Origin: Microcaldota archaeon
GTDB lineage: Archaea; Micrarchaeota; Micrarchaeia; Norongarragalinales; UBA8480
Direction of reading: 5' to 3'
Length of the DNA stretch: 51,663 nt
Assembly: GCA_023247085.1 (NCBI GenBank)
Contig: JAHFHC010000005.1
Location: forward strand, 1 to 51,663
Below are positions 8,052 to 50,216 of the stretch, piece after piece. Position 1 is the stretch's first letter, and every line of letters begins with the position of its first letter. The translations under genes and the position numbers were made by a program. The notes under the pieces were generated by a model. It searched no databases, had not been told where the DNA came from, and saw only the letters and a list, made by a program, of their open reading frames with translations.

Positions 8052-11000
8052 TTAAGCTTTAGTGTACTTGCAATAAACCTTGCGCATGGAAGACAAAGCA
8101 TCTAAGCCGTATAAGATATAAGCAATATGCCCACTAGATATAGAATCAACCACTATAGCACCAGTGTTATCACCACGCACTACCCCCAATAAGCTAGAAC
8201 CGAGAGTTAGCGCACTTAAGCCATTTTGAAACTGCTTTCCAGTGCAAGAAGGCACTGCAGTATTTAATATCGGATTACAAACGCGACCACGGGAATTGTC
8301 CACGGCAACGTACCTATAGGCTTCGGGAGGTATATCCTGCGCTTCAAATATTTGGTTTATTGAAGAAGGTGCTATGGCGCCTATAGTGGTTAGTGCACCA
8401 GTTGCATCTGTCACCCCTATTGTTGAACCTGATTTAAATTTTCTGCCAATAGGCGTTGGCGTTAAAGTGTTTGTATACGTGAATTTTTGAGTGCTGGTAT
8501 CGTAATTAAAGACTGGCTCACCAGTAAGAACGCAACCATCTGGCGGTAATGTGTTTGGAACTACATTGAAATCACACGACACTTCTTTTACCTGGCCGGC
8601 ATATTTACCACTAATAGTAACGGAGTGCTGCTCTGTTGGAACTGCATTTTCCAGTTTAGCGTCTAAATTTATCGTGCTTTGTAAACCCGTCAAAGTAGAT
8701 TCGAAAAGCAGATTCCCAGTAGATAACACACGCGTTTGTTTGATTTCTAACGTATTCGAGTCAAAACCATAGCCAAAGGTATATTGTGCTTCAAGCGGGG
8801 TTTCACTTGGAACGTTTACAAGTGCAGTTGACGAACTAGAGTCACACACCGTAGTCCTATCAAGATTATTTATAACTTTAACCTTAAACGCAGTATCCCC
8901 AATTGCCTGTGATGGATTTGTGGGAGCGACGTTAAACGTAAAGGTTTTGTCATCCGCTGAACTCGTTCCTAGGACTCCATTGACCTCTGGAAGTTGTATG
9001 ACTATACCATAGTCAATGTTCGAAGCAAGTAAAGTGCAACTGCTTAGTTGTTCTGGAACCAAATATCCATAAGTAAAAGTATAGGGCGCATTAAAATGAC
9101 TATTTAGTGCTATAACCACTTCTTGATTAGTAATCGTTTTACAGCGTAGTTTAAGTGGAAGGCTAGTTGGCATATTTGCATCGTTTATTAAAGCGGATCG
9201 CGTAGTGGCTAATGAAACATCCCGAACCTTTGAAAGTTGCAATGCAATGCTTTGATCAAATTTAAATGCGAATTTGTAAGCTGGTTTCAAGTTTATTGTG
9301 CCAAGTACATCCCCTTGATCAGTGTGGGAAGTGATTTGAAATGATAACGTATTTTCATCAACTGTAAAAGGTGCATTTACAATCGGAGCATATGTAAACG
9401 AATGTTCATCTGCACCGGCTTTAGCTGGATCGTATTTGTATGCACTGACTTGTAGTTCACCTTGACCTATTTTTTGCAAGATTAAGCCATTTCCAGTTTT
9501 TGATAATTCAAAAATCTTCGTAAACGCGTCGCCTTTTTTCAATATTCCATTCATTGACTCAAACTGGCCACTACCTTTGTTTGGCGCAGCTAAAATGAAC
9601 GCATTAGCTTCAGACACGCTATCAGCAAGTGTTCCTGAAGGGGGATTACTTCCGGGAGGATATACCAGCCCACCTACACTACTGCCATGGGTACTATCAT
9701 AAGTTATGCCGACATCCTTCCCATTTATTTTGAAGGGGATTGTACCTGCCTTTGTTACAAAATTGATAAATGATGTTGGCTCATACGTGAAATAGTAGGG
9801 CGTCTTGTCCTGTGCAGCGTGAGCGCAGCGTAGTAGTGCTGAGGTTGGGTTGGCAATTAAAGCGCAGCCGTTTGCAGAAGTCTCAAATACGTTTTTCAAA
9901 GTTGTTGGGATGTAGCTTTCGTCAGCGTAGTAGCGGAGTAAATCGCGTGCAATTTCAGTTAACGATACGACACCGTCGTTAACTTTAAGATTGCTTGATG
10001 GAAAGTCTTGGTATCTTCCATCTACAACTGCTACTTTTAGTTCTTTTCCTTCTAGTTGAACTGCTACGCAAGCATTACCCGCGTCACATGTTCCACCGGT
10101 TAAACCAGTGATTGTAAGTGTGTTGGCTGTGCTTTCTTGGAATAGCGCAGTGTGAGCGAATTGATTGGGTTGGCAGTTGTTTTCTGTGAAGGGGTCTAGC
10201 ATTATGTTGCCGCTTAAATCGCGCGTGTACTTGCAGTCGATTACTTGTACGGCATATCTTTTAATGTCACTTGCTGGGATTTTGAGTTCTTCAACTCCGG
10301 TTGAAGCTGCGCCAACTGGGTAAAATGCTCTGCCAAGTATTGGAAGGCCACTTATTATTGGCGAAGTGATTCCGTTCGTAATTCCACCTTGTGTGCGGAA
10401 TTCATATTCGGGTGGAACAGCTGCTGCAAAGTCTTCTCCGGAGTAATCCGCTGGCCAAACTGGTTTATTGTCACTACCACCTTTAGCTGGCACGGCTTGG
10501 AATACAAGCGTGCGACTAAACGGTGCTTTTTCGTTTGTTTGTTTTTTATCGAAGTCGGCTTGGTCATTTCTGATTTCTTCGCATGAGTCGAATAAGCCAA
10601 GTGGGTCAACTGGTCGAGTGGAAACCGGACAATTGTTTGTATCGAATTTATTTGTTCCAGGTTTTTCTCTTGCTGTGTTTACAATTGCGCGCATTACTGG
10701 GTACTTGTTTAGTGTTAGTAGTGTTGGTTGGTATCGGTCGAATTCAACACTGGTTGCTAGACTTGTCCGATCTCCAGCTACTTTCACGTAGGGGAATCCT
10801 TGACTGACTTTGTTTACTTTATTTCCTTCGTTGGTTCTGGTTTCGCCTGTTACCCAGTCGTATAGTGCTTCTGGTAAGCGTAGGCCGGCAAATGGAACTA
10901 CAGCTAGTCCGCTGCTTATTGCTGAGATTGCTCTTGAGAAGTCGTATCCTGCTGGTTTTACTTCGAATATGGTTATTCCTTCGGTGCGGGTTTTGTCTCC

Positions 11001-14000
11001 TTGGCTGCCGATTAGTTTAGCGGGGTCAACTGTGAATTGGTAGATGTTGAATCCGCCGGTTGTAACTCCTTCTGCTACTGATGCAGTTGCAGTTGCTGGG
11101 TCAGCTTGAATGCGTTTTGTTACGAAGTTTATCACTGGCGTTGGCATGGATACTATTGGGATTTCTTTTGCTACGCTTTTGATTTTAGTTTGTTTTAAGT
11201 TGCCTGCTATTCTGGCTGCAATTCGGTCGCGGCAAACGCGGTTGCCGGGTTGTAAGCAAGTGCGTAGTGCTTGCAAGTTTTGTCCTGCTTCGGTTTCTTG
11301 GCAAATGATGTCTTTGACAACTGTTTGTGATTGGCCTAGCACTCCATCTAGTGTAACTCCGGATGCAAATGATTCGCCTTCTTCAACTTCTTCTTCCTCT
11401 GGATCCAAGTAATTTTGTCCACCGCAAAAAGTGGCTAGTGTCTTGCACATTTGGTATTGTGCTTCTTGTGCCAACATTTCTGCCATTGCTTCTTGAATGC
11501 ATCCGGCAAGTGCATCTTGCATGTTGTCCATTGTGCTGTCGAGGTTAAATGTTTCAACGAATTGGTATTGTTCTTTTAGTGCAGCTTCAACTTTTGCTTG
11601 GGCTAAGTCAACTGCAGTTGACTCCATTAAAGGAGTACAGTAGTTTGTTCCACTGCATACGAACGGCTTGTCATCGTCTTTTTCGTTACGTGGCGCAGTT
11701 TCAAACTTGTAGTTGCCAATTACGTCTCCAAGTGTTGCTCCAATTGTGCCCGTATCTTCTGCTTTGGCGTTAAATGGTCTTAATTGGTCAGCGGTTCCGC
11801 CGGTTTGTTTGCATCCGCCGGTTTCGGAACATAAGTAGAATCCATCTTTAAACTTTGAAATTGAATTAAGTGCACTTTGGTCAGTGTCTCCTTCGTTTCC
11901 ATCTAGTACGCCAATTGAATTTGGTTTTACGCGGGCGATGTATTTTTCGCCACCAGCTCCACTGGTTACGGCGCTAAGTAACCCCACTGATTCGGGTAAG
12001 TTGTTGACAAGGAAGCCTGGTTCGCGTGGGTCTTGTTTTGCAACGTCGCTAGTGCGGTAGAATAGTTTGTTTTCGCCGACAGTTGTTGGTATTGTTGTGA
12101 ATAGATACCGGCCATCTAGTAATTGTTCGGGTTTAATGTTGAGTTTGATTTTGTAGCGTGAGTTGAGGTTAGCGTTGCTTTGTAATTCAAACACGGCATA
12201 TGCGTCATTGACAAATGTTTCTTTTGCTGGGTTCCATACTTTTGCTTCGAAATCGACTTTGCCAGCTGTACCAGCACCACTTTTTGGCCTTAGTTTAACG
12301 CATTTTCCATCTACGTTGAATTTAATTGCAAATGAAGCGAACTTGGGGCCCGAAGTTAATCCAGTTGCTGAAATAGCGGATATAACTGGCGCTAGTAAAG
12401 CTCTGCTAGTTGTGATTTTGTTTAGTTCTTCGTACGAGAAGCAACTTGGGTCAATTTGGCTTTCAGCTGGCAATATTTTAATCGCGTAGTTTGGCTCACC
12501 GCTATCGTCGTAAATAGCAAACCCGAAACCGTTGCGTGGAACAAGTGGAGTGATTTTAATTGTACACTCTGCGCCGCCGTTTCCATTATTGCACTCGACT
12601 TTTGAAGTCTTGTCACTATCTTGTGCAACGCTTACTGAATTGCCAAATACGGTGAACTTGGTTTTAACTGCTTGTGCGATTTTAGCTGCGTGTTGTTTGC
12701 CGCCGTCGAATAAGCCAGAGTCTGCAACTGCGTTTCTAGCCATGCAGCGCGTGATGAGGCCAGTGTAATAAAGCGCACCTTTCTTTGGACACATGCTTTT
12801 GATTTTAATTGTCCCTTGGTTGACGTTTTCTAAAGTGCACTTGTATAATCCGGGCTTGTCAAACAAATGAGTGACTGATTGTCCTGGTGATAAACTGGTT
12901 ACTTGTACAACTGCATTGCCGCTTCGGTCAGTGCAAACGAATGAATGTGGAATTTGATCTTGGTTTACCCATGCTATTGTCCAATTGCGTTGGAAGTTTT
13001 GCCTGCTGATGTCAAACATTGCACCATTGCCGTATTGATCCGGTGCGCCGAATCGGCCATATTGCCCACCTGCGCCGTATAATTGACCATTGTTATTGTA
13101 AGGCGATTGCATACCTGCCAATGCATCGCGTGGCACTCCAACTGCACCTTGGAAACGTGGGTCAACGAACTCTGGCCTTGGCTGGCCAGTTAATGGGTCA
13201 ACTACCCCCATGCGTTGGTAAGCGGATAAGTAGCCGCCAGCTGGTGGTGAATTATAAGAAGCGGCATCTGCATACCGCGGGTCCCATAAGTTTTGTGGCT
13301 GGTAAGAGCCATAGAACATTTGTGAAAACGTGTCAACTAATAAGCGAGGGGGTTGAAACACGTTGTTGTTAATGTAAACTACTCCATCGGCATTTGTTGC
13401 ATTAACTGAACCAAAAACAGTGCAAGTGTTTTCAATTTGAATTGCGTCATCTAGACTCCTGCTGCCTGTGCGTGGGTCAGTTGAGCTGATTTCAACTTGG
13501 CAAGAAGAGTTTGAATTAGGTGCTAGTGTAAGCAAGCGAGTTCTACCTGGTTTAAAGTTCGGGATACGGAAGCGCGTTGAGCCATCTGCACCGCCATTTG
13601 CCCTAACTTGATTTACGCCCGCGCCTGTAATTGAAACACAAGCTGGGTCAACAAAAACATCAGCGTTTAATTCAACATCTAAAGTGTTTGTTACACGCAG
13701 TGTTGTTGAATTACACGACATTGAAATAAAATCAGGTTGGTCAAAATCAAAGAAATTCGATACTTTGCTAGTAAGTGAAGCTTCAGTTGGGGCAAACCTA
13801 TCGCGTGAAACTTTTACAGTAAACAACCCCGGAGTAATTGGCCTAATGCGGCGAATTACATACTGTCCGTTTTCTCCATTGTTAGGCGAATTATCTCCAG
13901 CGATTTGCGCTGGCACATCGCCATCAAAAGGCGAACCTTGTTCTTCTTCAAATGCAATTGTTGCATCAGTAACCGGCAGTCCAGTTGAAGTTTTTACAGT

Positions 14001-16907
14001 TAATTTAAGATCCTTATTTTTACCCACTTCGAATTCAGAAGGAGTTATTTGTGTGATTGCCAATGCACCAGTACCTTGCACAACTGCGAATGCGCGCGAA
14101 TGAGTTATTATTGCACCCCTACTGTCGCCAAATTCAACGTCAAAAGGCACATTGTCAACTGGAATTTGACCAACTAAATCAACTGTGCCAGTGTAAAGGT
14201 CTTTTGCTTCGCCAAATAGCACTCGGATGCTTTTACCATCTTCTCCAACTGAAGATGTGCCACTACCAATGAAGTCAGTGAACTTAACTAACCCACCGCG
14301 AGTTGAAACTTTTACATACGCGCTTGACCCTTCAACTGCGCCAAAACTACGTATTTCAAAATTAAGCGAAAAAGGCTGGTTAACTGTAGCAATGAAAGGC
14401 GAGCCAACGGGTATTGGGTTTAGCGGCGAAGAAAATGAAACAGTTGCACAAGCTGAACCATCGTCATTGCACACATTACTGCCTTCAACTAGTGTGAATT
14501 GCTTGTCAATTGTAGTAGCATAGCACTCGTCTTTTGAGGGAGTCCTGCGTTCAAGTTTTAATTCCCCGTCTTCTGGAGCGCGGCTAAATTTACCGTTTTG
14601 AACTGCAAATGCACGGTAGTGTAAGCTTAACTTGTCGCGAGTTGGGTCAGCTGTTGGCTTTACGAAAACGCGCGCAGTTAATTCAACTACCCCGCTTACG
14701 CTATTGTAATCAACTTCAGCCCATTTTTTGCCTTCGTTGTTCACGTCATTGTTAAGCAAATCAGAAGAACAGTCGCTTCCAGGCGAGTAAGTTGTTGAGT
14801 GCATTGCAACTGGTTCAGCTAGTGTTGAAGGCGAGTAAGAGAATTTTTTAATTACAATTGGATCTGAGACAATTGTCGCTTGGTCGCCTACGCGCAAGTA
14901 TACTCCTTGGCGTGAAGATGAATTGGCAAAACTTGCAACAATGCGCGCAGTGTAAATTCTTCCTTTTTCAATTGCAGGCGCATTGATTATCTCTTTTCCT
15001 TTATCATCAGTGAGTGAAATTAAATTAACTGTTGTTTGATTGGAAAACGCGTAGGATAACATTGGCACATTCGCTTGCTTGGTTTGTCCGGGCGCAACTG
15101 AATATTTAGCTGATTGAAATGCCTCGTAGCCAGTTGCTTCTGCAATTAAGTAAATGTCTCGGTTAGCCCATACGCCATTGAGGAAACATGTACCGTCAGA
15201 TACTGACGTACAGTTAGCAACTGAATATCCATTTGGCGAATCAGCGTATGCAGTAACTAGTACTCCTGATACGGGGGTTAAGTCAATTAAGTCTTGTACG
15301 TGGAGGAGCATTGCCCCAACTGAACGCGATAATGCAAATGAAACTTTGCGGTTGCCACTTTCTGCGAATGGCACTTGAAACACGTCGCTTTGTCCAGTTG
15401 AACTATCTAGTGAAGCGAATAAACGTAGTAAAGTATCAGCTGGGATTCCAGTGAATGTAGCGGTTCCACTTGGACCAGTTAGTTTTTGTACTCCATAGAA
15501 CCTGCCGCTTCCGTCAGCTAATTCTACTTTTGCTCCACTAGCCGGTTGTAAATCAGCAGTCACTACTTCAGCATCAAATTCAACATTATTTCCGGCTGCA
15601 AGTGGCAATAAAGTAAGCGAAGTTTCACCAGCGGAAATGGCGGAAATAAGCGGAAGAAACCCTTCTGCATTTACAGCGACGTAAGTATCTGCTAATGCGA
15701 TGGTTGTTGATAATGTAAATTGTGTTCTTCCGTTTTCGTCAGTCTTATCAGTTGCGATTAATTGGTTTGAAAGAGTTGAAAATAAAAGTACATTTGCAGA
15801 AGAAATTGGATTGCGGTCATCACCTTTTACAGTTATTGAAACCAATTGAGATGTAGCTGCAGTTGCAGGAACTACTTGCACAGAGAACTCCAAGTCCTCG
15901 TCAGCAGTAATTTCACGCACTGGAGTTTGCTGCACTACAAAACCATCAGTTGGCGATTTTACAATTGCGTATACGAATGTGCCGATCCTTGCAACTTGTG
16001 GAAATGAGACGACTCCGCTTTCGGAATTATCAGCACCAAGGGGCGCAGTGGAATTTTCTGCAAATAATTCAACATTAACACTGACGGGTTGGCCAGTTGA
16101 GTCAGTAACGCGCACAATTACGTTGCCGCGAGTTGGCTCTGACTCATTTGCACTTGCCGTTTGTGGAATAAGTTGTACAGTTAACCTGCCATCTTTTGCG
16201 TTTAGTGTACGTTGCGTTGGGTCAAAATTATCCGCTTGAATGTTAAGCAACAAAATTGTGTCAAGTGAATCTAGTTTAAGCACAGCTGTGCCATCTGGTT
16301 GAGTTACAACTGTTCCGCTTACGCCAGTTGACATTGACTGATAGTTTATAGTTGCATCGCGTATCGGCGCGTGTGTTGTTGCATCAACTGCAGTTACTAG
16401 GAAGTCAAGTAATAGTGGAGGTGCAGATGAGCCAAGCCGCACGTCGAAGGAATTCGCACCACCCGTAAGTGAAATTGAACGTTCGTAAAGTGGAAAGCCA
16501 GTTGCATTTACTCTTATAGCAGCAGGGTGATTAAGTGGAACGTTTTCAAAAAACACGGTGTTGTTCGCGGTTTGTTTAGTTGCAAATACATTACTGTCAA
16601 TTAATAGTGAGACAGTTGAATCGCCATTTGCACCAGTAACGTGAATTGTGACTGTTCCAGTATTAGTTGCCGCTAGCATAGAGGCACCGTATACAACTGC
16701 GCCAACTAGCACGAGTAAAAGTGCAATTGCAACGGGAAACGATGGAACCCCTTTGCTTTCAATTGGCTCAGCAAAATATTTGTATAAATCAATTCCCTTT
16801 TCGTGTAGTGAATCGAGTACAGCGTAGTACTTGTCTTCTAGCTTATAGTAAAATGACTTTGCTTTTGCGAGGAAAGAGGAATCCTCTTCTTCGTCGTAAT
16901 CCACCAT
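8052..16907 (-). CDS. Giant membrane-anchored surface protein B (2951 aa)
   Basis: A 2951-aa protein. Residues 1-55 are charged and probably cytoplasmic, ending in ESKGVPSFP; one membrane helix follows (56-79). The exterior begins with a chain of about ten Ig-like/carboxypeptidase-regulatory-like repeats, each with a D-x-x-G-x-A/T-F turn. A GYEAFQSAK block near residue 594 and a SPFDGDVP block near 990 are shared in position with the other giants. Residues about 1189-1302 are Gly/Tyr/Gln/Asn/Pro-rich. Residues about 1303-1370 resemble a cupredoxin fold. Residues about 1755-1900 are helical and Cys-rich with an acidic DPEEEEVEEGE stretch. The C-terminal third returns to beta-rich sequence and ends without a membrane anchor or sorting signal. 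Structural, adhesive or S-layer-like function is inferred; no peptidase or glycosidase motif was seen. Confidence 0.9.
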   Translation of the reverse strand: MVDYDEEEDSSFLAKAKSFYYKLEDKYYAVLDSLHEKGIDLYKYFAEPIESKGVPSFPVAIALLLVLVGAVVYGASMLAATNTGTVTIHVTGANGDSTVSLLIDSNVFATKQTANNTVFFENVPLNHPAAIRVNATGFPLYERSISLTGGANSFDVRLGSSAPPLLLDFLVTAVDATTHAPIRDATINYQSMSTGVSGTVVTQPDGTAVLKLDSLDTILLLNIQADNFDPTQRTLNAKDGRLTVQLIPQTASANESEPTRGNVIVRVTDSTGQPVSVNVELFAENSTAPLGADNSESGVVSFPQVARIGTFVYAIVKSPTDGFVVQQTPVREITADEDLEFSVQVVPATAATSQLVSITVKGDDRNPISSANVLLFSTLSNQLIATDKTDENGRTQFTLSTTIALADTYVAVNAEGFLPLISAISAGETSLTLLPLAAGNNVEFDAEVVTADLQPASGAKVELADGSGRFYGVQKLTGPSGTATFTGIPADTLLRLFASLDSSTGQSDVFQVPFAESGNRKVSFALSRSVGAMLLHVQDLIDLTPVSGVLVTAYADSPNGYSVANCTSVSDGTCFLNGVWANRDIYLIAEATGYEAFQSAKYSVAPGQTKQANVPMLSYAFSNQTTVNLISLTDDKGKEIINAPAIEKGRIYTARIVASFANSSSRQGVYLRVGDQATIVSDPIVIKKFSYSPSTLAEPVAMHSTTYSPGSDCSSDLLNNDVNNEGKKWAEVDYNSVSGVVELTARVFVKPTADPTRDKLSLHYRAFAVQNGKFSRAPEDGELKLERRTPSKDECYATTIDKQFTLVEGSNVCNDDGSACATVSFSSPLNPIPVGSPFIATVNQPFSLNFEIRSFGAVEGSSAYVKVSTRGGLVKFTDFIGSGTSSVGEDGKSIRVLFGEAKDLYTGTVDLVGQIPVDNVPFDVEFGDSRGAIITHSRAFAVVQGTGALAITQITPSEFEVGKNKDLKLTVKTSTGLPVTDATIAFEEEQGSPFDGDVPAQIAGDNSPNNGENGQYVIRRIRPITPGLFTVKVSRDRFAPTEASLTSKVSNFFDFDQPDFISMSCNSTTLRVTNTLDVELNADVFVDPACVSITGAGVNQVRANGGADGSTRFRIPNFKPGRTRLLTLAPNSNSSCQVEISSTDPRTGSRSLDDAIQIENTCTVFGSVNATNADGVVYINNNVFQPPRLLVDTFSQMFYGSYQPQNLWDPRYADAASYNSPPAGGYLSAYQRMGVVDPLTGQPRPEFVDPRFQGAVGVPRDALAGMQSPYNNNGQLYGAGGQYGRFGAPDQYGNGAMFDISRQNFQRNWTIAWVNQDQIPHSFVCTDRSGNAVVQVTSLSPGQSVTHLFDKPGLYKCTLENVNQGTIKIKSMCPKKGALYYTGLITRCMARNAVADSGLFDGGKQHAAKIAQAVKTKFTVFGNSVSVAQDSDKTSKVECNNGNGGAECTIKITPLVPRNGFGFAIYDDSGEPNYAIKILPAESQIDPSCFSYEELNKITTSRALLAPVISAISATGLTSGPKFASFAIKFNVDGKCVKLRPKSGAGTAGKVDFEAKVWNPAKETFVNDAYAVFELQSNANLNSRYKIKLNIKPEQLLDGRYLFTTIPTTVGENKLFYRTSDVAKQDPREPGFLVNNLPESVGLLSAVTSGAGGEKYIARVKPNSIGVLDGNEGDTDQSALNSISKFKDGFYLCSETGGCKQTGGTADQLRPFNAKAEDTGTIGATLGDVIGNYKFETAPRNEKDDDKPFVCSGTNYCTPLMESTAVDLAQAKVEAALKEQYQFVETFNLDSTMDNMQDALAGCIQEAMAEMLAQEAQYQMCKTLATFCGGQNYLDPEEEEVEEGESFASGVTLDGVLGQSQTVVKDIICQETEAGQNLQALRTCLQPGNRVCRDRIAARIAGNLKQTKIKSVAKEIPIVSMPTPVINFVTKRIQADPATATASVAEGVTTGGFNIYQFTVDPAKLIGSQGDKTRTEGITIFEVKPAGYDFSRAISAISSGLAVVPFAGLRLPEALYDWVTGETRTNEGNKVNKVSQGFPYVKVAGDRTSLATSVEFDRYQPTLLTLNKYPVMRAIVNTAREKPGTNKFDTNNCPVSTRPVDPLGLFDSCEEIRNDQADFDKKQTNEKAPFSRTLVFQAVPAKGGSDNKPVWPADYSGEDFAAAVPPEYEFRTQGGITNGITSPIISGLPILGRAFYPVGAASTGVEELKIPASDIKRYAVQVIDCKYTRDLSGNIMLDPFTENNCQPNQFAHTALFQESTANTLTITGLTGGTCDAGNACVAVQLEGKELKVAVVDGRYQDFPSSNLKVNDGVVSLTEIARDLLRYYADESYIPTTLKNVFETSANGCALIANPTSALLRCAHAAQDKTPYYFTYEPTSFINFVTKAGTIPFKINGKDVGITYDSTHGSSVGGLVYPPGSNPPSGTLADSVSEANAFILAAPNKGSGQFESMNGILKKGDAFTKIFELSKTGNGLILQKIGQGELQVSAYKYDPAKAGADEHSFTYAPIVNAPFTVDENTLSFQITSHTDQGDVLGTINLKPAYKFAFKFDQSIALQLSKVRDVSLATTRSALINDANMPTSLPLKLRCKTITNQEVVIALNSHFNAPYTFTYGYLVPEQLSSCTLLASNIDYGIVIQLPEVNGVLGTSSADDKTFTFNVAPTNPSQAIGDTAFKVKVINNLDRTTVCDSSSSTALVNVPSETPLEAQYTFGYGFDSNTLEIKQTRVLSTGNLLFESTLTGLQSTINLDAKLENAVPTEQHSVTISGKYAGQVKEVSCDFNVVPNTLPPDGCVLTGEPVFNYDTSTQKFTYTNTLTPTPIGRKFKSGSTIGVTDATGALTTIGAIAPSSINQIFEAQDIPPEAYRYVAVDNSRGRVCNPILNTAVPSCTGKQFQNGLSALTLGSSLLGVVRGDNTGAIVVDSISSGHIAYILYGLDALSSMRKVYCKYTKA

Positions 16908-18278: not shown

Positions 18279-18614
18279 TTAGCGGAAGCGCCTTGGCGTT
18301 AATTTTTGTAATCCTCGCCTTACTTTTTGCTTTACTGAATCAGCAAAGGTTTCGTTAAGCATTCTTTCGCTTATGGTTCGGTCATATAAATATTTATATG
18401 CGATAAATGATCCTGATTTACGTTCATGCTCTTCTGCGCGTTTAAAAACTGCGTCAAGCTTTTTGAAAAGAGCAGCTTTTTGTTGTTCGTCTTTACCTGC
18501 AAATAAATCTTTTAAATGTTCGCCAAGGAAAACTAATTCGTGAGGGTAGACTTTGCCTTTTTCAATCCCAACGTGTAATGCCACATAACGAGGGGTTTCT
18601 AGCGAGTATCCCAT
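18279..18614 (-). CDS. 3' portion of the frameshifted two-module RHGWL gene
   Basis: A 111-aa frame whose first 40 residues (GYSLETPRYVAL, then GIEKGKVYPHELVFLG) exactly continue the RHG module begun in the overlapping frame at 18562-19188. Compare the methyltransferase at 20371, which has RHGYLSTGLKTR then GVESGKIKPATVTKLG. The ATG at 18614 lies inside the upstream frame, so this may be the tail of one protein after a +1 shift at 18609, or a separately initiated fragment. The remainder is helical and basic (LRKLTPRRFR-type tail). No catalytic motif was seen. Confidence 0.55.
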   Translation of the reverse strand: MGYSLETPRYVALHVGIEKGKVYPHELVFLGEHLKDLFAGKDEQQKAALFKKLDAVFKRAEEHERKSGSFIAYKYLYDRTISERMLNETFADSVKQKVRRGLQKLTPRRFR

Positions 18615-19188
18615 GTCGTGGTACGTTTATTTCGTCAAACTTTTGTCTAGCAAGCGCTACTTCTTTTGGAGTAGGCATTTTAGGTTTAGAGCGGAAAGAA
18701 ATAGGTGTTTGTAATGCACGGCGAATTCCTTTAAACGAAACTGGCGCGTTTAAAAATTTATCAACTTTTCCTAATCTTTTTCCAAGTGGAATTGGAGTTG
18801 CTAAGACACGGCGAACTCCTTTAAACGTAATTGGAGTTGTTAAGAAATTACGTTCAAGGCCTTGAGCCGGACTTGGCATAGATTGAGCTCGTACATGTGG
18901 TTCAAGTGCTTTGATTAAGTGTGCGAGCCCGTGTTTGCCTCCTTTGAGTTTAGTTAAATTTGTAGTTTCATGCAAAGCTTGAGTAAATACATTTTGGCGG
19001 TTTGCTTTGTGGAGCGCCGACATCAAGTCACCAAGGCGAGTTAAATGCGCGGGTTTTATTTTGCCTCTTTTTGCTTCGTCCGCAAATGCAATTGCTAGAC
19101 CTTCAGGGAGCCACCCGTATCGCTTCACTTTAAATTCTTCGAATACTTTGTTGGCTTCTTGTCTTGAATGGACAGCATACTTCGGCAT
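18562..19188 (-). CDS. 5' portion of a two-module RHGWL protein (unknown function)
   Basis: A 208-aa basic protein. Residues 13-56 carry one RHGWL module (VFEEF, KRYGWLPEGL, RGKIKPAHLTRLG). Residues 114-133 and 144-163 are a tandem repeat: NFLTTPITFKGVRRVLATPI and KFLNAPVSFKGIRRALQTPI. Residues 180-193 start a second module (KFDEINVPRHG), which then runs out of frame and stops 15 residues later. Restoring the frame by skipping one base at 18609 fuses it to the 111-aa frame for a protein of about 300 aa. It is divergent from the kinase-FHA gene, with 53 nt between start codons and a shared AT-rich box. Function unknown; a scaffold or substrate role is a guess. Confidence 0.6.
   Translation of the reverse strand: MPKYAVHSRQEANKVFEEFKVKRYGWLPEGLAIAFADEAKRGKIKPAHLTRLGDLMSALHKANRQNVFTQALHETTNLTKLKGGKHGLAHLIKALEPHVRAQSMPSPAQGLERNFLTTPITFKGVRRVLATPIPLGKRLGKVDKFLNAPVSFKGIRRALQTPISFRSKPKMPTPKEVALARQKFDEINVPRHGILARNPSLCGITRWD
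18609..18609 (-). other. Apparent 1-nt insertion / +1 frameshift point
   Basis: The coding strand reads CAT GGG A TAC TCG. Skipping the single A changes RHGIL into RHGYSL and rejoins the conserved module. It could be a mutation, a recoding site or an assembly error. Confidence 0.5.
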
Positions 19189-19206
19189 AAGCGCATCACC
19201 AGTTAC

Positions 19207-19217
19207 AATATAAAAAG
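19207..19217. promoter_or_regulatory. Shared AT-rich promoter box of a divergent gene pair
   Basis: AATATAAAAAG is 25-35 nt upstream of the plus-strand ATG at 19242. In the other direction it reads CTTTTTATATT, 19-29 nt upstream of the minus-strand ATG at 19188. One element could serve both genes. TCACCA and TGGTGA flank it as a 6-bp inverted repeat. Confidence 0.45.
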
Positions 19218-19241
19218 TGGTGACTCTTTTTAACTATTGCC

Positions 19242-20351
19242 ATGGCAGTTGTTGAGCGTATTAGAAAGTTAGTGGAAGAGCAGCAGTATGACGATAACGC
19301 GTTTTGGAAGAATCGCGATTTGTTAAGGCAAAAAGCAAAAGTTGCCAACGGGGTAGAAATGCATGGTAGCGCAGTTACAATTCACGGCAAGGGAATAATT
19401 GTAAGTGGCAAGTCTGAATCTGGAAAAACTACTACGTGGTTTCATTTGCTTAAGCGCGGGGGACGTGCAATAAGCGAGGATTTAACTAATTTAGTTTTTA
19501 GAAGTAAACGATCGCCATTGCTTGTTGCACCTGCTACTCAACATGCTTTTCGAATTCACGGAAAATTTCACAGGCTAGATACACTAGAACTACCATACGG
19601 AATAGCGGGAAAAATGAAAAGTGGAAGCATAATCCCACGCTATAGAGCGGCACCCATGGATGATACGGCAGTACTTGCGGGTCGGCCTTTGCGGGCTATT
19701 TTTTACATTGAAAAACAACGGCTTCATCCAAATGCTTCTCCGCGCATAGTTGCTATGGATGATGATAAATTGGCGTGGCGCTTGCAAACAGAGGACACGT
19801 CTACTTTTCCTTCGTTGTTCGCTTTGCCTGAAACGCACACGCGTGAATCTATTCGTCGTTTAAAATGGGATAGAAAAAAAGCAATAGCAACACAGCTTGT
19901 GCGTGAACTTAGGCAAAGTGGCGTGCATTTTTTCCAAGTTTATGCGCCTAAGACACGCGACCCAGCGAAGCAAGCGTTGTCAGCGCAGGCAATATCGCAG
20001 TTTGTCCGTGGCTTTACTGGCAAGTTCAAACCCGGGCTTAATTTAATGGCAATTAACCGACAGCACTCGGGAGAAGTTTTTCATATTTCGCATTCAACTG
20101 TGATTGGCACATCAGCTGATTTGAAAATTGGGGGCGACGATCGCATTGAAGCACGACATACAGTGATTAAAAGAAAAGATAGAAAATGGGTTGCGCGCGA
20201 CTTAGGCACAAAAGCGCATACACATATCTTGAAGAAAGAGCGTGTTGACAAAGGAAAAGTGGATTGGCGTAGGCTTAAAGGCACGATGGAAATCGGAAAT
20301 GGAGATTTAATTGCAGTTGGACGCACGTTTTTTCAGATAGTAATAAAATAG
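19242..20351 (+). CDS. HPr-kinase-like P-loop protein fused to a degenerate FHA domain
   Basis: A 369-aa protein. Residues about 36-90 match the HPr kinase/phosphorylase C-terminal fold: MHGSAVTIHGKGIIVSGKSE with Walker A G56-KSESGKT, then LLKRGGRAISEDLTNLV, where SED 78-80 takes the place of the family's ADD. HPr kinases phosphorylate a serine on HPr; archaea normally lack that pathway, so the substrate is unknown. Residues about 277-368 look like an FHA domain: STVIGTSADLKIGG, IEARH, VARDLGTKAHTHIL and GNGDLIAVG. The phosphothreonine-binding Arg of the IGR turn is Thr (T290), and the Ser of SxxH is Glu (E303), so phosphopeptide binding may be lost. The methyltransferase gene follows after 19 nt, probably in one operon. 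Confidence 0.7.
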   Translation: MAVVERIRKLVEEQQYDDNAFWKNRDLLRQKAKVANGVEMHGSAVTIHGKGIIVSGKSESGKTTTWFHLLKRGGRAISEDLTNLVFRSKRSPLLVAPATQHAFRIHGKFHRLDTLELPYGIAGKMKSGSIIPRYRAAPMDDTAVLAGRPLRAIFYIEKQRLHPNASPRIVAMDDDKLAWRLQTEDTSTFPSLFALPETHTRESIRRLKWDRKKAIATQLVRELRQSGVHFFQVYAPKTRDPAKQALSAQAISQFVRGFTGKFKPGLNLMAINRQHSGEVFHISHSTVIGTSADLKIGGDDRIEARHTVIKRKDRKWVARDLGTKAHTHILKKERVDKGKVDWRRLKGTMEIGNGDLIAVGRTFFQIVIK

Positions 20352-20370
20352 TCAATTGAATACATAATTT

Positions 20371-21441
20371 ATGGTTTTACCAGAAAGAGCAACTGAATTT
20401 TTTGATAAAAACGTGCCACGGCATGGTTACTTGTCCACCGGATTAAAAACTCGAATTTGGAAAGGAGTAGAATCAGGCAAAATAAAACCAGCTACTGTAA
20501 CTAAACTTGGTAAAAGGATACGCGAACATATTGCAGATACAATAAGTAATCCCGTTCAATACGCCACTGCAGTTGAACGTTTTGGAAGACTGCAAAATGA
20601 AGTACAGGCTATGCCTATAAGGAAAGCAGTTAAACACTTGATTCGAAATCTTGGACCAAAAGAAACTGCAATTGTAAAACGTAGGCGAGAATTAGCAAAA
20701 GCTATAATAGCAGGAAGGCAAGCTGAACGACAAGGAGGATATGAACTAAGCAGAGGAATAACTGCGCATAACCGTTGGCTTGGAGTTAACTTACAACATG
20801 AAGCGCGAGCACTTGCCAGAATACATGGACCAATCACAGTACTTGATGCTGGAGGCGGAACTGGGTTCGCAATGGCAGACTTAAAGAGTCGGCTTCGTAC
20901 AAAAATAAAAGAAACGCACGCAACTAGTTTAACTCAACATTTTTCAAATCGAGTTGCAAGTGACATTGAAACTCATAAAGAAGTCGTTATTCCAGCTAGT
21001 AAACCATATCCCGATAGTATTGCACCAGTAATGCACGTTGCGCATATTGAAAAAATTCCGCTTCCTTCAAGTTCAGTGCATTTAATTACTTCTGTGCGTG
21101 GCGCAACTTGGTATACACCGAGAACAATTCACCGTTCAGTAGGCGAACTAGTTCGCATATTGAGGCCAGGTGGACGTGCTTTCTTACATTTAATGGAACC
21201 AAACAAAGAAGCTGAAGCAAGATTATCAAGTTTATTTAAGAGAGAACAATTGAAACATACTTATACTTACGGAGTTGTTGCAGCTAAACGTAGCGAGGAT
21301 AAACAAGTGAAAAATGAATTGCACATCGTTAAATCACGGGCTGAACGTGACAGAATAGCTAAAGAATTACAACGCGGGTTTGAAGAAGGAAAGTACGATT
21401 ACGTCACGAAGTATAGAGTATTGGCATTAGAAAAACAATAA
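20371..21441 (+). CDS. RHGWL-module SAM-dependent methyltransferase
   Basis: A 356-aa two-part protein. Residues 7-50 are an RHGWL module (ATEFFDKNVPRHGYL, GLKTR, ESGKIKPATVTKLG). A helical linker runs to about 150. Residues 155-350 are a class I Rossmann methyltransferase with motif I VLDAGGGTGF at 157-166, a LITSVRGATW strand-loop and RILRPGGRAFLHL as the later motif. The methyl acceptor cannot be told from sequence. It lies 19 nt after the HPr-kinase-like/FHA gene and converges on the second HPr-kinase-like gene. The module is shared with proteins at 18279-19188 and 49122, which suggests a common docking partner rather than a catalytic role. Confidence 0.75.
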   Translation: MVLPERATEFFDKNVPRHGYLSTGLKTRIWKGVESGKIKPATVTKLGKRIREHIADTISNPVQYATAVERFGRLQNEVQAMPIRKAVKHLIRNLGPKETAIVKRRRELAKAIIAGRQAERQGGYELSRGITAHNRWLGVNLQHEARALARIHGPITVLDAGGGTGFAMADLKSRLRTKIKETHATSLTQHFSNRVASDIETHKEVVIPASKPYPDSIAPVMHVAHIEKIPLPSSSVHLITSVRGATWYTPRTIHRSVGELVRILRPGGRAFLHLMEPNKEAEARLSSLFKREQLKHTYTYGVVAAKRSEDKQVKNELHIVKSRAERDRIAKELQRGFEEGKYDYVTKYRVLALEKQ

Positions 21442-21461: not shown

Positions 21462-22709
21462 TTACTCCATTAATCTTGCAATGTGTTCAGCTGCAGCCAT
21501 TCGGTTGTCGAATGTCGTTCCTTTTTTTACATTGCGAGAAGGCGCACTTCGTTTAAACTCTTTTGGATCTAGTGGCACTTTTATTCTGTAAAAAGAAACT
21601 CCTTTTTGATGTAATTTTGTAACAACTGCTTTTGACAAACTAAGTCGTTGGCTTTGAGAGAGTTTAGTTTCAACTGGATACGTAGCTGGGTAGCCAAACA
21701 CAGTTGGTACTCCAACATCTGTTCGGTTAGCTAAGTGGTCGACAACATAACTTGGGTCAACTCGTTCAATTAAAGTTTCTGGCGACTCGTGGGTTTCAAG
21801 TAGAAAAACGGTTTTCAATGGCATTGGATGCAAGTTAGGGTGAAGTGGAGCTTTAGCTGTGCTTGGAACGGATTTACCTTTAAATAATTGGTCTGGGTTT
21901 CTACCATGCTCCCAAAAAACGTTTTTTATTTCAGCGGGAAAATCTGGAGAATGAATGCTTCCAAATACTCCTTCGTAAAATTTTCTGCCTTGAGCATAAT
22001 ATTGGCTAGCTGCCCTGAACCCGTATTTTTTGTAAGGCCCAACTACATTTGCAGCCTTTGGTGAAAATAATATGTGCACGCGGTCATCAGCTACTATTGG
22101 AAAGCCGTGAAAGTGGCTTAACAAAAACGAAAGGCGCCCTTTGCCTACTCGCGGGGCTCCAATTATTGCAACTGCACCTTTTTTGCCAAGCAAAACATTT
22201 CCATGCAAATCAGCTGCAGCTTTTCCAACAATTTCTTCTTTTTTTAGCGAGTGCGCTGGATCTTTGTGATAGTGGGTCCCATATGCCTCTGGGTCAAAGA
22301 ATTGCTGGAGGTTAACTAATTTAGTGAAGCGGTCAGCAGCGGAGCGTAAGTGTTCTTCAGGTATATCCGATATTCCAGTTGATACGCCTATTGCAGTTGG
22401 CTTGGTCTGAAGTTGACGTAGTTCAGTTAATAGAAATGCAGCTGAGTGGCCAGCTTCTGGACTAAAGCGAGAAGCACGCTGCACAAGTGGAAACACGTGT
22501 GCTTTAATGAAATCTGGACCGCGCAACCGCCGCAAGTTTTCAAGCACTTCGCCTATTTGCTGGACTTGTTTTGTTGCATCTGGATGTTTACTGCCAAAAA
22601 CGGCTAGATTAACTGCGAACCGGTCTCCGCCTTGGCGCAAGTATCCAGGTAGCTTAAAGTGATTAGTTTCAAACCAACTCAAGGCATGCCGGATAGTTTT
22701 TATTTCCAT
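21462..22709 (-). CDS. HPr-kinase-like protein with divergent N-terminal RHGWL-like module
   Basis: A 415-aa protein. Residues 10-56 resemble the RHGWL module (ALSWFETNHFKLPGYLRQGG, then VQQIGEVL) but lack the RHG core, so the match is weaker. Residues about 165-215 fit the HPr kinase C-terminal domain better than the first cluster kinase does: DLHGNVLLGKKGAVAIIG, Walker A GAPRVGKG (184-191), HGFPIVADDRVHIL with ADDR at 207-210. The Walker A ends in Gly where Ser or Thr is usual (GKG instead of GKS/T), which may affect metal-nucleotide binding. It is last of three minus-strand genes after the 484-aa orphan and the glycosyltransferase. The substrate is unknown; HPr-kinase-like enzymes in bacteria can also phosphorylate peptides. 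Confidence 0.68.
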   Translation of the reverse strand: MEIKTIRHALSWFETNHFKLPGYLRQGGDRFAVNLAVFGSKHPDATKQVQQIGEVLENLRRLRGPDFIKAHVFPLVQRASRFSPEAGHSAAFLLTELRQLQTKPTAIGVSTGISDIPEEHLRSAADRFTKLVNLQQFFDPEAYGTHYHKDPAHSLKKEEIVGKAAADLHGNVLLGKKGAVAIIGAPRVGKGRLSFLLSHFHGFPIVADDRVHILFSPKAANVVGPYKKYGFRAASQYYAQGRKFYEGVFGSIHSPDFPAEIKNVFWEHGRNPDQLFKGKSVPSTAKAPLHPNLHPMPLKTVFLLETHESPETLIERVDPSYVVDHLANRTDVGVPTVFGYPATYPVETKLSQSQRLSLSKAVVTKLHQKGVSFYRIKVPLDPKEFKRSAPSRNVKKGTTFDNRMAAAEHIARLME

Positions 22710-25942: not shown

Positions 25943-28900
25943 TTACTTAGCATCTGCTTTGCTGAGATCACATTTGGCTCGATAGTCGTTTGCATATTGA
26001 TTCATCAAATCTTCTGCATCACTTGCATCTGACCCAATAAGCACACATGCGCTACTGCTTATATCTGTAGTTGCTGAAGTAGGTACTGCTCTAAATAATT
26101 CGCTAATTGCTATATCTGGATTAGTTCCTGAAGCGTCGCATGTTGCAGTATCACTTACGAGTAGAGAAAATGGATCTTTTGGATTATTTAATGTTTGAAT
26201 AGTTGTAAATGTAGCTAAACCACCTAAGCTGCCGAGAATAATTGGACAAGCCGCTATGTTAAGTGCTGGAGCAAAACAAAGTAAACTACCGGCAATTGAT
26301 CCTACAATAGCTTCACCAACAGGGCCAGGTTGACAATCTTGAATCACGCCATAATCTCGGCGTCTAACTTCAAAATGTGATAAATGGGTTTCTGGGTTTG
26401 ACCCGACATAACGCACTATTCCTGTTGAATCACTAAAATGGGTTTTTACCACGTCGTTTATTCCTAAATCGTATAATCCAAATTTGCTTGTATCAGTAGG
26501 ATACAAAGGCGGCTGCATCGGAGTCGAACGGTATCTAGCTTCTCTGACTAATTGTCCGTTTTCGTTTCTAAGATCAAAATTATAATGGTAGTATTTTTCT
26601 AGCCAGTCGTCATTGGTGCCAAATATTGAGTAGAATTGTACCCTAAGTAAACTCAATGGGTGATCAGTAGGCCATCCAAATGCATCTTCACCGGCAGTAA
26701 GTTTCTTAATAAATTTGATTGCAACTAACTCGGTCTTTTCTCCTAATGAACTACCAGTGCCTCCAAGTGAACATACTATCTCTTTGCCTTGAGAAGCAGT
26801 TGAAAATGAAGCAGCGAAAAGCGAGTTTGGATTACAATCCGGTTCTTCTGTTTTTGCAGGATCATCAAAAGTTGCTTTAACATCAATATCAACATCGCGA
26901 GTAGATTCACCTTGGTAGTCCGAAGGTGCTTTGGTGTTAACCGTTATTCCTATTGGTAGTTTTACTTGATCCGTTGGTTTCAAATCACATTCTAACATAT
27001 TGGGGTTGCCAGGTTGCAGCATTCTACAATGTGAGTTTTGGGCGTAAGCGTCGTTTTGTGTAGCAACTTTGAATTCAACTTTGTCACTATTGCACACTGG
27101 ATCAGTTTGGCTTGGCCAATAGTTGCAGAAATAGCGTTTACTTTCAATAGGGTCGCCAATAGTTGCAAAAAATGATATTCCTTTTGGAGTTGCTAAGTTT
27201 AAACGATGAATTGCATCAGGAGAGATAAAGTCATTGGTATTGAATTCAAAACTGCATTTGCCATTATTGTCTAAAACACATAATGGAGTGGCTAGAGGCG
27301 GGTTGACCTCAAAAATGGGTATGCGTCTCTGTGCGCCGGTTGTATCATAGTATTCTAAGTTTAGCGTTATCTCTTTGCTAAAATATTTACGATTAGTAGT
27401 GCAGAAAGTTGCGCGCATTTTTTTATTAGGGGTCAATGACTCGCTTCCAACAACGCGCATAAAGTCTCCGCTTCCACTCGGATATTCTTCAGTGAGTTCA
27501 ATTGCGCTTATATCTGGCGCGTTTAGTCTACCGCAAGCATCTAAACCACTAATAGGTTCTGGCAAAGCTGATTTTCCTTGGTCGTTAATTGGCGGAGCTT
27601 CTGGATAGTTGAGAATGTACACGTGCGCTGCTTTGTTTATGTCTACTGGTTTGTTATTTTCGTCATAGTATTTTTCTTCTAATTTGTCTTTGTTATTAAA
27701 TACGGTTACTTTTACTAGATAAGGTATATTGGAATTTACAAGTGGCGAACATTTGACAAACCTTAATGAGGGCAGTGCCCCTGCGCGTGCTTTGTCTATG
27801 ACATAGTTTTTACCGTCTTTGGTTTTAACAAAATTATATTCTTGGGTAATGATTGATTTATCGCCGTCTTGGCAAAGGTATTCAATTTTTGCTTTTAGGT
27901 TTGGCGAGTTTATTCCACGCAAGTTTATAGCAGCGGCATCTAGAGTAACACGCGTACCTACTTGGGTTGTGGATTCGGGAAATAGGTATACCCACTCGTA
28001 ATTTTTAGAATCAGCAGACAAGAAATAACTCGGCGTTATTGATTTTATTATTGGAGCTTCAGTTACGACGGTAACTTGGCAAGAATCAGAGACAGAATTT
28101 TCGCCGTATTTTGTCCATGCTTCAAACGAATAGCTTCCAATGGTATTAAAGTCAAGAAAATCAAATGAACTTTTTTGTTCCGATACTGGACGATCTAGTA
28201 TTTGTACACCGCCGTTTTTTATTAGTAATTTTCTATCAGTTGGGCTGTCTCCATCTGGGAAAGTATAATCTACAACTACTGGCGTCTTTACTTGTATGCG
28301 TTCACCGCAGAGGCTGTCTTCTTTGCCGGTATCTGCTTTGGCGTATACGTTTATTGTTGGCCTCAGCACCTTTGCTCGAACTGGCGGCTGTACTTTCGTA
28401 GTATCGCTTTCTAGTTTAGCTTGGGTTTCAAATGTTGCTTTTATTGTCACTTTTATTTGTGCGCTTGGATTTTGTGGCGACATCGTGTTTACTTCGATGA
28501 AAATGAATTTGTCGCGTTTAAGTGTTTCTTTTGCTTTGTCGTCTTTGGAAAAGTCGCAGTTTACGGTTAATTCGTTGTTGTTTATGTTAACTGTGCAGCT
28601 TTGTGATAGTGGGTTGTTGTCTTTGTCTTTTACAACGTAGTTGAAGTTTGTGAATGAGAGTGGGCAAGTTAGTTGAGTTACGACATTTGCTAAGAATTTG
28701 TAATCTAGACCTATTTGTGCATCAACTGCAACTGAGGATATTCCGCAAGCTGTGTTCCAGTTTGGTGCGCCAAATGGAATTTGTCCAACTGGTCCTATTG
28801 GTGCGCTTATTACGTTTACGCGAACGTTTTTAGTTGAGCCATCTGGCAGCGTAACTTTGAGGTTTCCAGTTGCTGGTACGGGTTGTTGTAAGAAGGAGTA

Positions 28901-34776: not shown

Positions 34777-35280
34777 TCACTCAAAATAGTACCAAATCGC
34801 GTAGTAAGTAACTAGCCCGATTATCAACACCGCACGGAAAAGCGCTTCGTGTAATGGCTCAAACCACGGCGTGCCAAAACTATTTATTGTAAATGCAATT
34901 CGACTTGCGTTGAACAAAATAAAAAACAATAAACCCACAACGATTCCTTTTATGCGCTGTTCAATTGTTTTGTCTCGACTCGCAGCAATAAACCCAATTA
35001 ACAGCGCAAGTTCAAGGCCGCCTGAGCATAAGTTGCTTATCTCTGCATCAAGACTCGGCATAATTAAATGAAAGGCACCATTTTGGCTGGCAATTATAGC
35101 GGTTTTTCCAAGAAAAGATAGCAAGAATTGCGACAAGTGCGCTGCGATTTGGTGGAGAATAGTTGTAGCTGAAAACAGCAAGTAAAGCGGAACGGTTATT
35201 ATCGCGGTATCAAGTATAAACTGGCCGACTTGTTTCGCTGTTTCTTTAACTCGCCTTTGATGTGTGGTTTTTTTAACCAT
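34777..35280 (-). CDS. Archaeosortase/exosortase-family transpeptidase
   Basis: A 167-aa multi-pass membrane protein with the Cys-Arg-His triad of the exosortase/archaeosortase family: NLCSGGLEL with C85, FNASRIAF with R127 and FEPLHEALFR with H144. Each lies at the edge of a hydrophobic helix as expected. Archaeosortases cleave a C-terminal tripartite signal and link the protein to lipid. The ATG at 35280 is preferred; a TTG at 35343 would add 21 polar residues and collide with the leuS start. No protein in this window shows a PGF-CTERM-like C-terminus, so its substrates are elsewhere or use another signal. It is divergent from leuS, with 62 nt between starts. Confidence 0.85.
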   Translation of the reverse strand: MVKKTTHQRRVKETAKQVGQFILDTAIITVPLYLLFSATTILHQIAAHLSQFLLSFLGKTAIIASQNGAFHLIMPSLDAEISNLCSGGLELALLIGFIAASRDKTIEQRIKGIVVGLLFFILFNASRIAFTINSFGTPWFEPLHEALFRAVLIIGLVTYYAIWYYFE

Positions 35281-35310
35281 GTTTATCCTTTGGTTATACT
35301 CGTAGTTTTC

Positions 35311-35319
35311 GTTTATTAA
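35311..35319 (+). promoter_or_regulatory. Candidate TATA box of leuS in the divergent gap
   Basis: GTTTATTAA is 24-32 nt upstream of the leuS ATG at 35343. The complementary AT-rich sequence may also serve the archaeosortase gene. Confidence 0.4.
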
Positions 35320-35342
35320 CTTAGAGTGTGGTTTATCAAACA

Positions 35343-47828: not shown

Positions 47829-48395
47829 ATGAAGCGTGGATTTATTGGACCAATTGGCGATGATATACCTAGCATATTTCCGATTGTTGCTGGAATGTTA
47901 TTGTTCATAAGCACTATTTTGTACGCAAACGCGCAAGTAGATGCACGCAATAGCGAATTGTTGCAACAAGAAGCTACGCAGAAACTAGCTTATCTTGCTA
48001 CTCAAAAAGCGTCATTTCAACCAGGCGAATTTCAAAGTATTTGTAAAAACTCATTGCGTGGTTTTGCTGAAAATAATGGGTTGAAATTTGCAGTTGTTGT
48101 TAAAAAGTTTTGTGAAAAGGGGTGTACGCGCTGCGGTAATGGGATTGACTTATTGAATTCAAATGTATTCAACGAAGATGAGATGAGAAACTCGCCAGCG
48201 TTTGACCCCAATTATGTTTGCACTAGCGAAAAGCAGCCAATACTAGATGAGTTTAACGCAGCTAGGCTTGATGTGTCCAACGCACCGAAAGACGCAGTCG
48301 TATTAACGTATCCATTTACAGTGCCTTGTCCGGATGATGCATCTCCAGTGAAAGGATTAGCAACATTAAACGTAATTGTGTGGAAATCAAAATGA
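47829..48395 (+). CDS. Pilin-like protein 5
   Basis: A 188-aa protein from the ATG at 47829, two nucleotides after the previous stop; a GTG five codons upstream is less likely. It starts with MKRG, then FIGPIGDDIPSIFPIVAGML as helix, so the signal has the RG| site but Phe at +1 and a very short leader. The mature part contains KKFCEKGCTRCGNG, possibly a small metal site or disulfide pair. Its stop overlaps the next gene's ATG. Confidence 0.72.
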   Translation: MKRGFIGPIGDDIPSIFPIVAGMLLFISTILYANAQVDARNSELLQQEATQKLAYLATQKASFQPGEFQSICKNSLRGFAENNGLKFAVVVKKFCEKGCTRCGNGIDLLNSNVFNEDEMRNSPAFDPNYVCTSEKQPILDEFNAARLDVSNAPKDAVVLTYPFTVPCPDDASPVKGLATLNVIVWKSK

Positions 48396-49121: not shown

Positions 49122-50216
49122 ATGGCAATTGAACCAGAAGAAATAAGAAAAGCAACTGAATTTTTTAACGCACTTGGAATGAAGCGACATGGCTGGCTAC
49201 CGGCCCCGTTAAAAGTAGCTTTGCATGCTGCAGTTGAAAAAGGAGAAATTGATCAAACAAATTTAATTGAGTTAGGTGAAAGGTTTGCTAAAATTGGAAA
49301 AATTGAGGGAATTCAACCACATATTAAGGAAGCGGCTGTGACAGCTGCAACAAATCCAAGAAAGGCACTTATCACATTAAAAATAAATATAACTGGAACT
49401 AGCAAGCCCAGTATTGAAGAGCATTATGAAGATAGTGTTCCGCTTTGGGCACGAAAAAGAATTGAATCACATGTACCGGCTACACTCTTGGCTGAATTGA
49501 AAAAAGCGTATTTCGAAGGAAAATTAATTCGAGAGCCGCGTGGGCAGCATAACTATTATGGTCAACACCATGGCAATGGCGGATTTTTTCATGCTATAGG
49601 CGAGTTGTTGCCGCCAGCAGTTGAAGATTCTGAAATTAATACATCTGCACTAGTGAAAAAAGCAGTTGAAACAATAATGCAACACGCAATGCACATAAAA
49701 GACCCAGTGTATAAGGCTAGTTACTTGCGGAATGCGTTGTTCGATATCACTACTTACTGGTATGGTTCAATTTATCGAGATGAGTTAAGGCCAGAAGTTG
49801 AAGCAAAAATAGCACATTTTATCGCTAGGCACAAAGCACAACTTGGCAGTTTACACGTCACTCCAGAAAAACTAGGTAAACTTCTTTACGAGCAAGGAGT
49901 TTCACACATTTGGCCATCTCAATACAATGACTTTCTTTACGTACAAACGCCTTTGAAAACGGTGGATCAAACAAGAAAATTTGCAGATAATTTAGAAGTA
50001 AGTTTAGATCCTGCACATTTTGAAATTGATCATGCACTTGGACGAGGACAAATTAGGTTAAAATCTACTTCTCCAGAAGGGGACGAGTTTATAAGTAGAA
50101 TTAGTTTACCAAATAAAAAAGAAAAAGAAGGGCTGCGTTGGCAACATACTAAAAGCGTTGTAAATGGATTTATGGGCGGCAAAGTAAAAAAAGCCTTTAG
50201 AGAAAAACCACATTAG
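49122..50216 (+). CDS. RHGWL-module protein of unknown function
   Basis: A 364-aa protein. Residues 11-55 are a clear RHGWL module (ATEFFNALGMKRHGWLPAPL, VEKGEIDQTNLIELG). Two parts follow. The first, about 95-250, is helical and has GQHNYYGQHHGNGGFFHAIG, a His/Gly-rich loop. The second, about 250-364, is beta-rich (FEIDHALGRGQIRLKSTS). No known catalytic motif was matched. It lies after the pilin genes and tail-to-tail with the zinc-ribbon gene; the two stop codons overlap in TTAG. It shows that the module is not confined to the 18-23 kb cluster. Confidence 0.65.
   Translation: MAIEPEEIRKATEFFNALGMKRHGWLPAPLKVALHAAVEKGEIDQTNLIELGERFAKIGKIEGIQPHIKEAAVTAATNPRKALITLKINITGTSKPSIEEHYEDSVPLWARKRIESHVPATLLAELKKAYFEGKLIREPRGQHNYYGQHHGNGGFFHAIGELLPPAVEDSEINTSALVKKAVETIMQHAMHIKDPVYKASYLRNALFDITTYWYGSIYRDELRPEVEAKIAHFIARHKAQLGSLHVTPEKLGKLLYEQGVSHIWPSQYNDFLYVQTPLKTVDQTRKFADNLEVSLDPAHFEIDHALGRGQIRLKSTSPEGDEFISRISLPNKKEKEGLRWQHTKSVVNGFMGGKVKKAFREKPH

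Follow-up and report, generated by a model that had tools for sequence, protein, structure and literature searches.

A helical N-terminal module on unrelated proteins of a Norongarragalinales archaeon as a candidate cytoplasmic adaptor

The window analyzed here, the whole stretch of 51,663 nucleotides of contig JAHFHC010000005.1 from a Microcaldota archaeon of the order Norongarragalinales, contains several genes beginning with the same segment, marked by an RHGWL motif. This segment proved to make up the N-terminal half of a larger domain, about 95 residues long and hereafter called the module, which appears from its sequence to be previously undescribed. The genome holding the window (G000; approximately 0.9 Mb, 92% complete) carries 14 module copies in 13 genes (15 profile matches, the last two being halves of one copy), and the module stands in front of bodies of several unrelated families. 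On balance, we regard it as probably an exchangeable N-terminal cytoplasmic adaptor that would gather proteins into a common assembly, through module-module contacts or via a shared hub.

A profile built from three clear in-frame copies matched 14 places in G000, with E-values down to 1e-35; a larger profile was used later. In a leave-out test, each copy group was omitted in turn, sought with a profile of the remainder and scored against shuffled sequences (200 shuffles for the copy on the HPr kinase (HprK)-like protein). All groups were recovered. The HprK copy scored 12.7 bits and the other groups 19-68 bits, and the highest shuffle score of any group was 12.6 bits. The homologues obtained by profile search, the check proposed in an earlier sequence-only reading of the window, thus extended far beyond chance. 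The four clear copies listed in that reading were all present where it had placed them (Table 1). Its weaker copy on the HprK-like protein held narrowly, as the left-out score of 12.7 bits exceeded the best of the 200 shuffles (7.7 bits). Judged by sequence, this copy is probably a genuine module and the other copies are secure.

The segment was conserved as the reading had described, but the boundary of 44 residues assigned to it was too short. In the alignment of all copies, conservation ran well beyond residue 44, across two more helices that finish with the conserved pattern A...L. An AlphaFold2 (AF2) model, resting on few sequences (nine copies), gave a mean predicted local distance difference test score (pLDDT) of 83.4 and a predicted template modeling score (pTM) of 0.73, with five helices at residues 5-18, 28-39, 45-58, 65-75 and 79-93. 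The same five helices recurred in the model of the whole 49122 protein with its body attached, and this full-length model was poor outside the module (pTM 0.47). The conservation past residue 44 and the five-helix model set the length of the domain at about 95 residues, to which a DNA boundary near codon 94, described below, adds independent support.

No named domain corresponded to the module, in agreement with the earlier reading. Searches of Pfam (27 copies among the tests), NCBIfam and PHROGs gave no match, seen in many copies, that passed a curated threshold or had a convincing E-value, no enzyme family of Pfam or NCBIfam matched, and no match to a ubiquitous helical linker, which could have explained the segment, was found. 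PDB sequences and Foldseek searches of PDB and BFVD with the module gave nothing credible, with no Foldseek match in PDB below E 1.8. A literature search found no paper on phosphosignaling with FHA/PP2C in archaea of the DPANN group, or on a shared domain of Micrarchaeota.

The proposal that one module is joined to different bodies was borne out by a BLASTP comparison of 15 module proteins (E up to 1e-3), in which 38 of 105 pairs were alike in the first 105 residues and 3 of 105 in the remainder. The module was N-terminal wherever the start was readable, tandem arrays excepted. The bodies included a PP2C phosphatase of Stp1 type (E 1.7e-42), a methyltransferase, an HprK-like kinase, an APH-type kinase in the same-genus genome G002 (E 6.8e-22; nzgw34, 62% complete, low coverage), a weakly matching Bud32-like kinase (E 0.003; the counterpart in G000 is split), proteins bearing a single hydrophobic segment (weak TPR matches in some of them) and orphans. 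The HprK-like body in the window gave an NCBIfam match to HPr kinase-related proteins at only E 0.13, and a paralogue of this protein with an FHA domain is encoded nearby (19242-20351, plus strand). Arrays of modules alone were also present; in G002, C105:205-1515 encodes three modules and C59 at least two. The PADLOC search found that only the PP2C body resembled a candidate defense model (8.6e-8), which probably reflects the PP2C fold. A small protein encoded two genes from the module-bearing PP2C (L075:5315-5905, plus strand) showed weak resemblance to kinases (HopBF1 model, E 0.013). A second shared element, C-terminal and of the pattern HPF.I.....V.L.P...Y..AL, was seen in several membrane-anchored module proteins (L073:8345-9154, L078:4595-5398 and L053:2-1483).

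Movement of the module between bodies was visible at the DNA level. The DNA of the genes C23 and C31a was 86% identical over a stretch that begins about 45 nt ahead of the start codon and reaches to about codon 94. No similarity followed, indicating that the module moves as a unit; C23 and C35a were alike along their whole length. G001, a third member of the genus, encodes an orthologue of 48380-49087 with 61% identity. The gene next to it, in the position corresponding to 49122, starts with the module and continues into a body of C23/C35a type, so that the module is kept and the body differs from that of 49122. Because the deep forks of the module tree were mostly unresolved, no order of swaps is claimed. 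The ratio of nonsynonymous to synonymous substitution rates (dN/dS) between G000 and G002 orthologues lay at 0.09-0.40 in the module and at 0.19-0.53 in the body, indicating that both are maintained by purifying selection. One such pair (C35c/C52) showed 75% identity in the module and 33% in the body. Inspection by eye did not establish a shared element upstream of the module genes.

Most module loci are common to the two species. The profile search detected 18 module matches in G002, one in G001 and one, N-terminal, in the sister-genus genome G005, and no further convincing match was obtained with the first-round profile among the 301 genomes searched in the phylum. A second-round profile detected copies in G017 and G014, both of one genus in a second family of the order, located at the protein start as read, which in G014 is an inner ATG. 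The link by sequence was weak, with 16.3, 13.6 and 9.9 bits, each above all 1000 shuffles, and a fourth copy not above them. A profile-profile comparison of the genus copies with the second-family copies gave E 2.3e-6 and 89% probability over 84 columns, and the reverse search from the second-family copies recovered a G002 copy (4e-4) and the methyltransferase copy of the window (0.014). These copies are probably homologous to the module. One second-family module protein (L128, G017) has a hydrophobic segment and an HEWGH motif resembling a zinc protease site, with no Pfam match. Relatives of the module are therefore rare: outside its own genus, the family yielded a single copy, and a second family only diverged copies confined to one genus. 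Weak matches in G001 C121 and G110 were not counted, lying inside a glycosyltransferase-like and a ligase-like protein, nor were those in G013, inside another enzyme, or one in G121, which was too weak. A scan of genome contigs with the 49122 protein gave no match, and a tighter alignment matched only nzgw34; no module was found in viral contigs and phage records.

The location of the module was examined from hydropathy and charge. None of 19 module proteins had a hydrophobic N-terminal segment, the highest 19-residue mean hydropathy within the first 60 residues being 0.71, and by this criterion no copy carried a signal peptide. Membrane proteins tend to keep the more positively charged flank of a segment inside the cell (positive-inside rule). 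Among seven single hydrophobic segments in module proteins, five were more positive on the flank next to the module (net charge +4 or +5) than on the far flank (+1 or +2), and the module is accordingly predicted to be cytoplasmic in these five. The docking or recognition tag suggested by the sequence-only reading remains the best account, whereas a secretion leader is disfavored by the lack of hydrophobic N-termini and by the mostly module-inside orientation predicted for the membrane-anchored proteins.

A folded, apparently non-catalytic, terminal and mobile domain on signaling enzymes, membrane proteins and bare arrays is the basis of the adaptor reading, and from these properties we infer both that the module binds proteins and that its partner is shared. 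Enzymes and membrane proteins would carry the module so as to join a common assembly, held by module-module contacts or by one shared hub. The module-only arrays would serve as scaffold, the membrane-anchored proteins as receptors or points of attachment, and the soluble enzymes (PP2C phosphatase, kinases and methyltransferase) as those recruited. DPANN genomes are very small, yet G000 gives 13 genes to proteins with one undescribed front domain; if the module is an adaptor, it would represent a modular and quickly rewired system of protein recruitment in minimal archaeal cells. It also offers a handle on orphan proteins that could not otherwise be annotated, and with the module profile built here other workers could detect the family and give it a name.

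Several observations weigh against the adaptor reading. Of the 13 module genes of G000, three carry disruptions, namely the frame break near 18600 (inside the second module of the 18279-19188 gene), an in-frame TGA in C29 and the split of C31b. Unless these are assembly errors, not all copies are essential; the disruptions may be due to decay or to such errors. The nzgw34 counterpart of 18279-19188 is spread across two contigs and is open in the region of the frame break (G002 C59:4125-5312). In addition, the module is absent from PP2C relatives in G003 and G016 and is therefore not needed for PP2C catalysis, and the module genes are dispersed among housekeeping genes and do not form one operon. 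Two of the seven membrane segments had an unclear or opposite charge distribution (module side/beyond: C23, -1/+2; G2_C106, +4/+3).

The same data would suit a docking tag for one non-module hub, such as the cytoskeleton, a chaperone, the ribosome or a protease adaptor, without contact between modules. Dispersed genes, and enzymes that share no pathway, agree equally well with a general partner and with a complex. Arrays of two or three modules lacking a catalytic body, however, make more sense as scaffolds, and no hub candidate was identified; the hub reading seems rather unlikely to us. N-terminal helical domains often regulate or dimerize their own protein, and phosphatases and kinases are typically so regulated. 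A built-in regulatory or dimerization domain acting on its own polypeptide only would suit the several bodies of phosphatase or kinase kinds, but it is improbable given one module on unrelated bodies, its movement between them, and arrays that hold nothing to regulate.

An export or delivery signal, marking proteins for transfer to a host or neighbor cell, was considered because the module is lineage-specific, exchanged between bodies and carried by enzymes that might have host targets; PMC6627985 describes other Micrarchaeota as associated with Thermoplasmatales. Such a role is very improbable for a folded domain of 95 residues with no hydrophobic leader, as several of the proteins have a downstream membrane segment that would hold the module inside and most loci are common to both species. 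As for chance likeness of helical, charged N-termini, the HprK copy alone is marginal; recovery of left-out groups at up to 68 bits, whole-genome E-values down to 1e-35 and the front/body comparison refute this explanation, and we give it next to no credence.

The described systems closest to the adaptor reading are effector-associated domains (EADs) and the Death-like domains of bacteria (Kaur et al. 2020, PMC7159879; 2021, PMC8195603). EADs, like the module, are small, non-catalytic, mostly all-helical and terminal, and occur in several copies per genome on different effector or signaling enzymes, copies within a lineage being most alike. The module agreed with the EAD pattern in its five helices over about 95 residues, the absence of an enzyme family match, its terminal position, its coupling to signaling domains, and its multiple copies and bodies. 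On the other hand, no EAD model was listed at E up to 1 when the 27 copies were compared with Pfam. EADs accompany MoxR-vWA, STAND or GTPase cores, whereas G000 had no match over cut-off to the MoxR family AAA_3; no VMAP, iSTAND, GAP1 or other core was fused to any copy, cores besides MoxR not being searched one by one. EAD bodies are nucleases, proteases and TIR domains, while those of the module are phosphosignaling enzymes, a methyltransferase and membrane proteins. Since neither the sequence match nor the expected cores were found, the module is not classed with these domains, and we claim only that it may work like EADs or Death-like domains.

The module bodies belong to or resemble Stp1/IreP PP2C phosphatases, APH-type kinases and HprK-related kinases, but the N-terminal module is not part of these families. 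The Death-like superfamily is a six-helix bundle, whereas five helices are predicted for the module in the nine-sequence model, and no sequence or fold match to the Death superfamily was found in PDB sequences or by Foldseek. A comparison with metazoan Death-superfamily adaptors suggests a possible recruitment logic for the module. In these adaptors, one helical domain is common to receptor, scaffold and enzyme (PMC8195603). A corresponding network, in which membrane proteins, with the module inside the cell and another part outside, would recruit the PP2C phosphatase, kinases and methyltransferase by module-module contacts, assisted by three-module scaffolds and rewired by module swaps, is offered as a tentative and somewhat doubtful specific form of the adaptor reading.

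Table 1. Module copies and associated features in the window.
Feature	Position	Strand	Evidence
Module copy 1 (N-terminal domain of open reading frame 18562-19188)	18892..19188	-	Profile E 1.4e-34, larger profile 1.8e-25; left-out score 61.6 bits
Module copy 2, spread over two frames (18598-18678, followed by 18375-18611)	18375..18678	-	Profile matches; frame break near 18600
Module-array gene, disrupted in G000	18279..19188	-	No catalytic body found
HprK-like kinase with C-terminal FHA domain, without module	19242..20351	+	PF07475 2.7e-7, PF00498 0.0014
Module copy starting the methyltransferase	20371..20664	+	Profile match; left-out score 45.7 bits
Class I S-adenosylmethionine (SAM) methyltransferase body	20665..21441	+	Methyltransf_11 PF08241 E 3.9e-7; motif VLDAGGGTG
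HprK-like kinase body, P-loop GAPRVGKG	21462..22409	-	BLASTP 1e-9 to HprK+FHA protein 19242-20351
Weak module copy starting HprK-like protein (probable)	22410..22709	-	Left-out 12.7 bits vs best shuffle 7.7 (200 shuffles)
Module copy starting orphan	49122..49403	+	Profile matches; AF2 model pLDDT 83.4, five helices
Orphan body	49404..50216	+	No family match; low-confidence model

Other genes were noted apart from the module. Two giant proteins of 2951 and 2381 aa (8052-16907 and 25943-33088, minus strand) have similar N-termini and, by eye, a short tail, one membrane segment and repeated beta-type domains; they are probably surface proteins. Near them is encoded a putative protein of the exosortase/archaeosortase family (34777-35343, minus strand). 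A pilus-type ATPase interrupted by an apparent intein (39240-43016, plus strand) is followed by genes for a pilus membrane protein and pilin-like proteins. Two adjacent orphans (L069:17-697 and 710-1369) are apparent paralogues sharing the pattern LPR..AT.Y.GWRK.AL and may represent a lineage-specific family.
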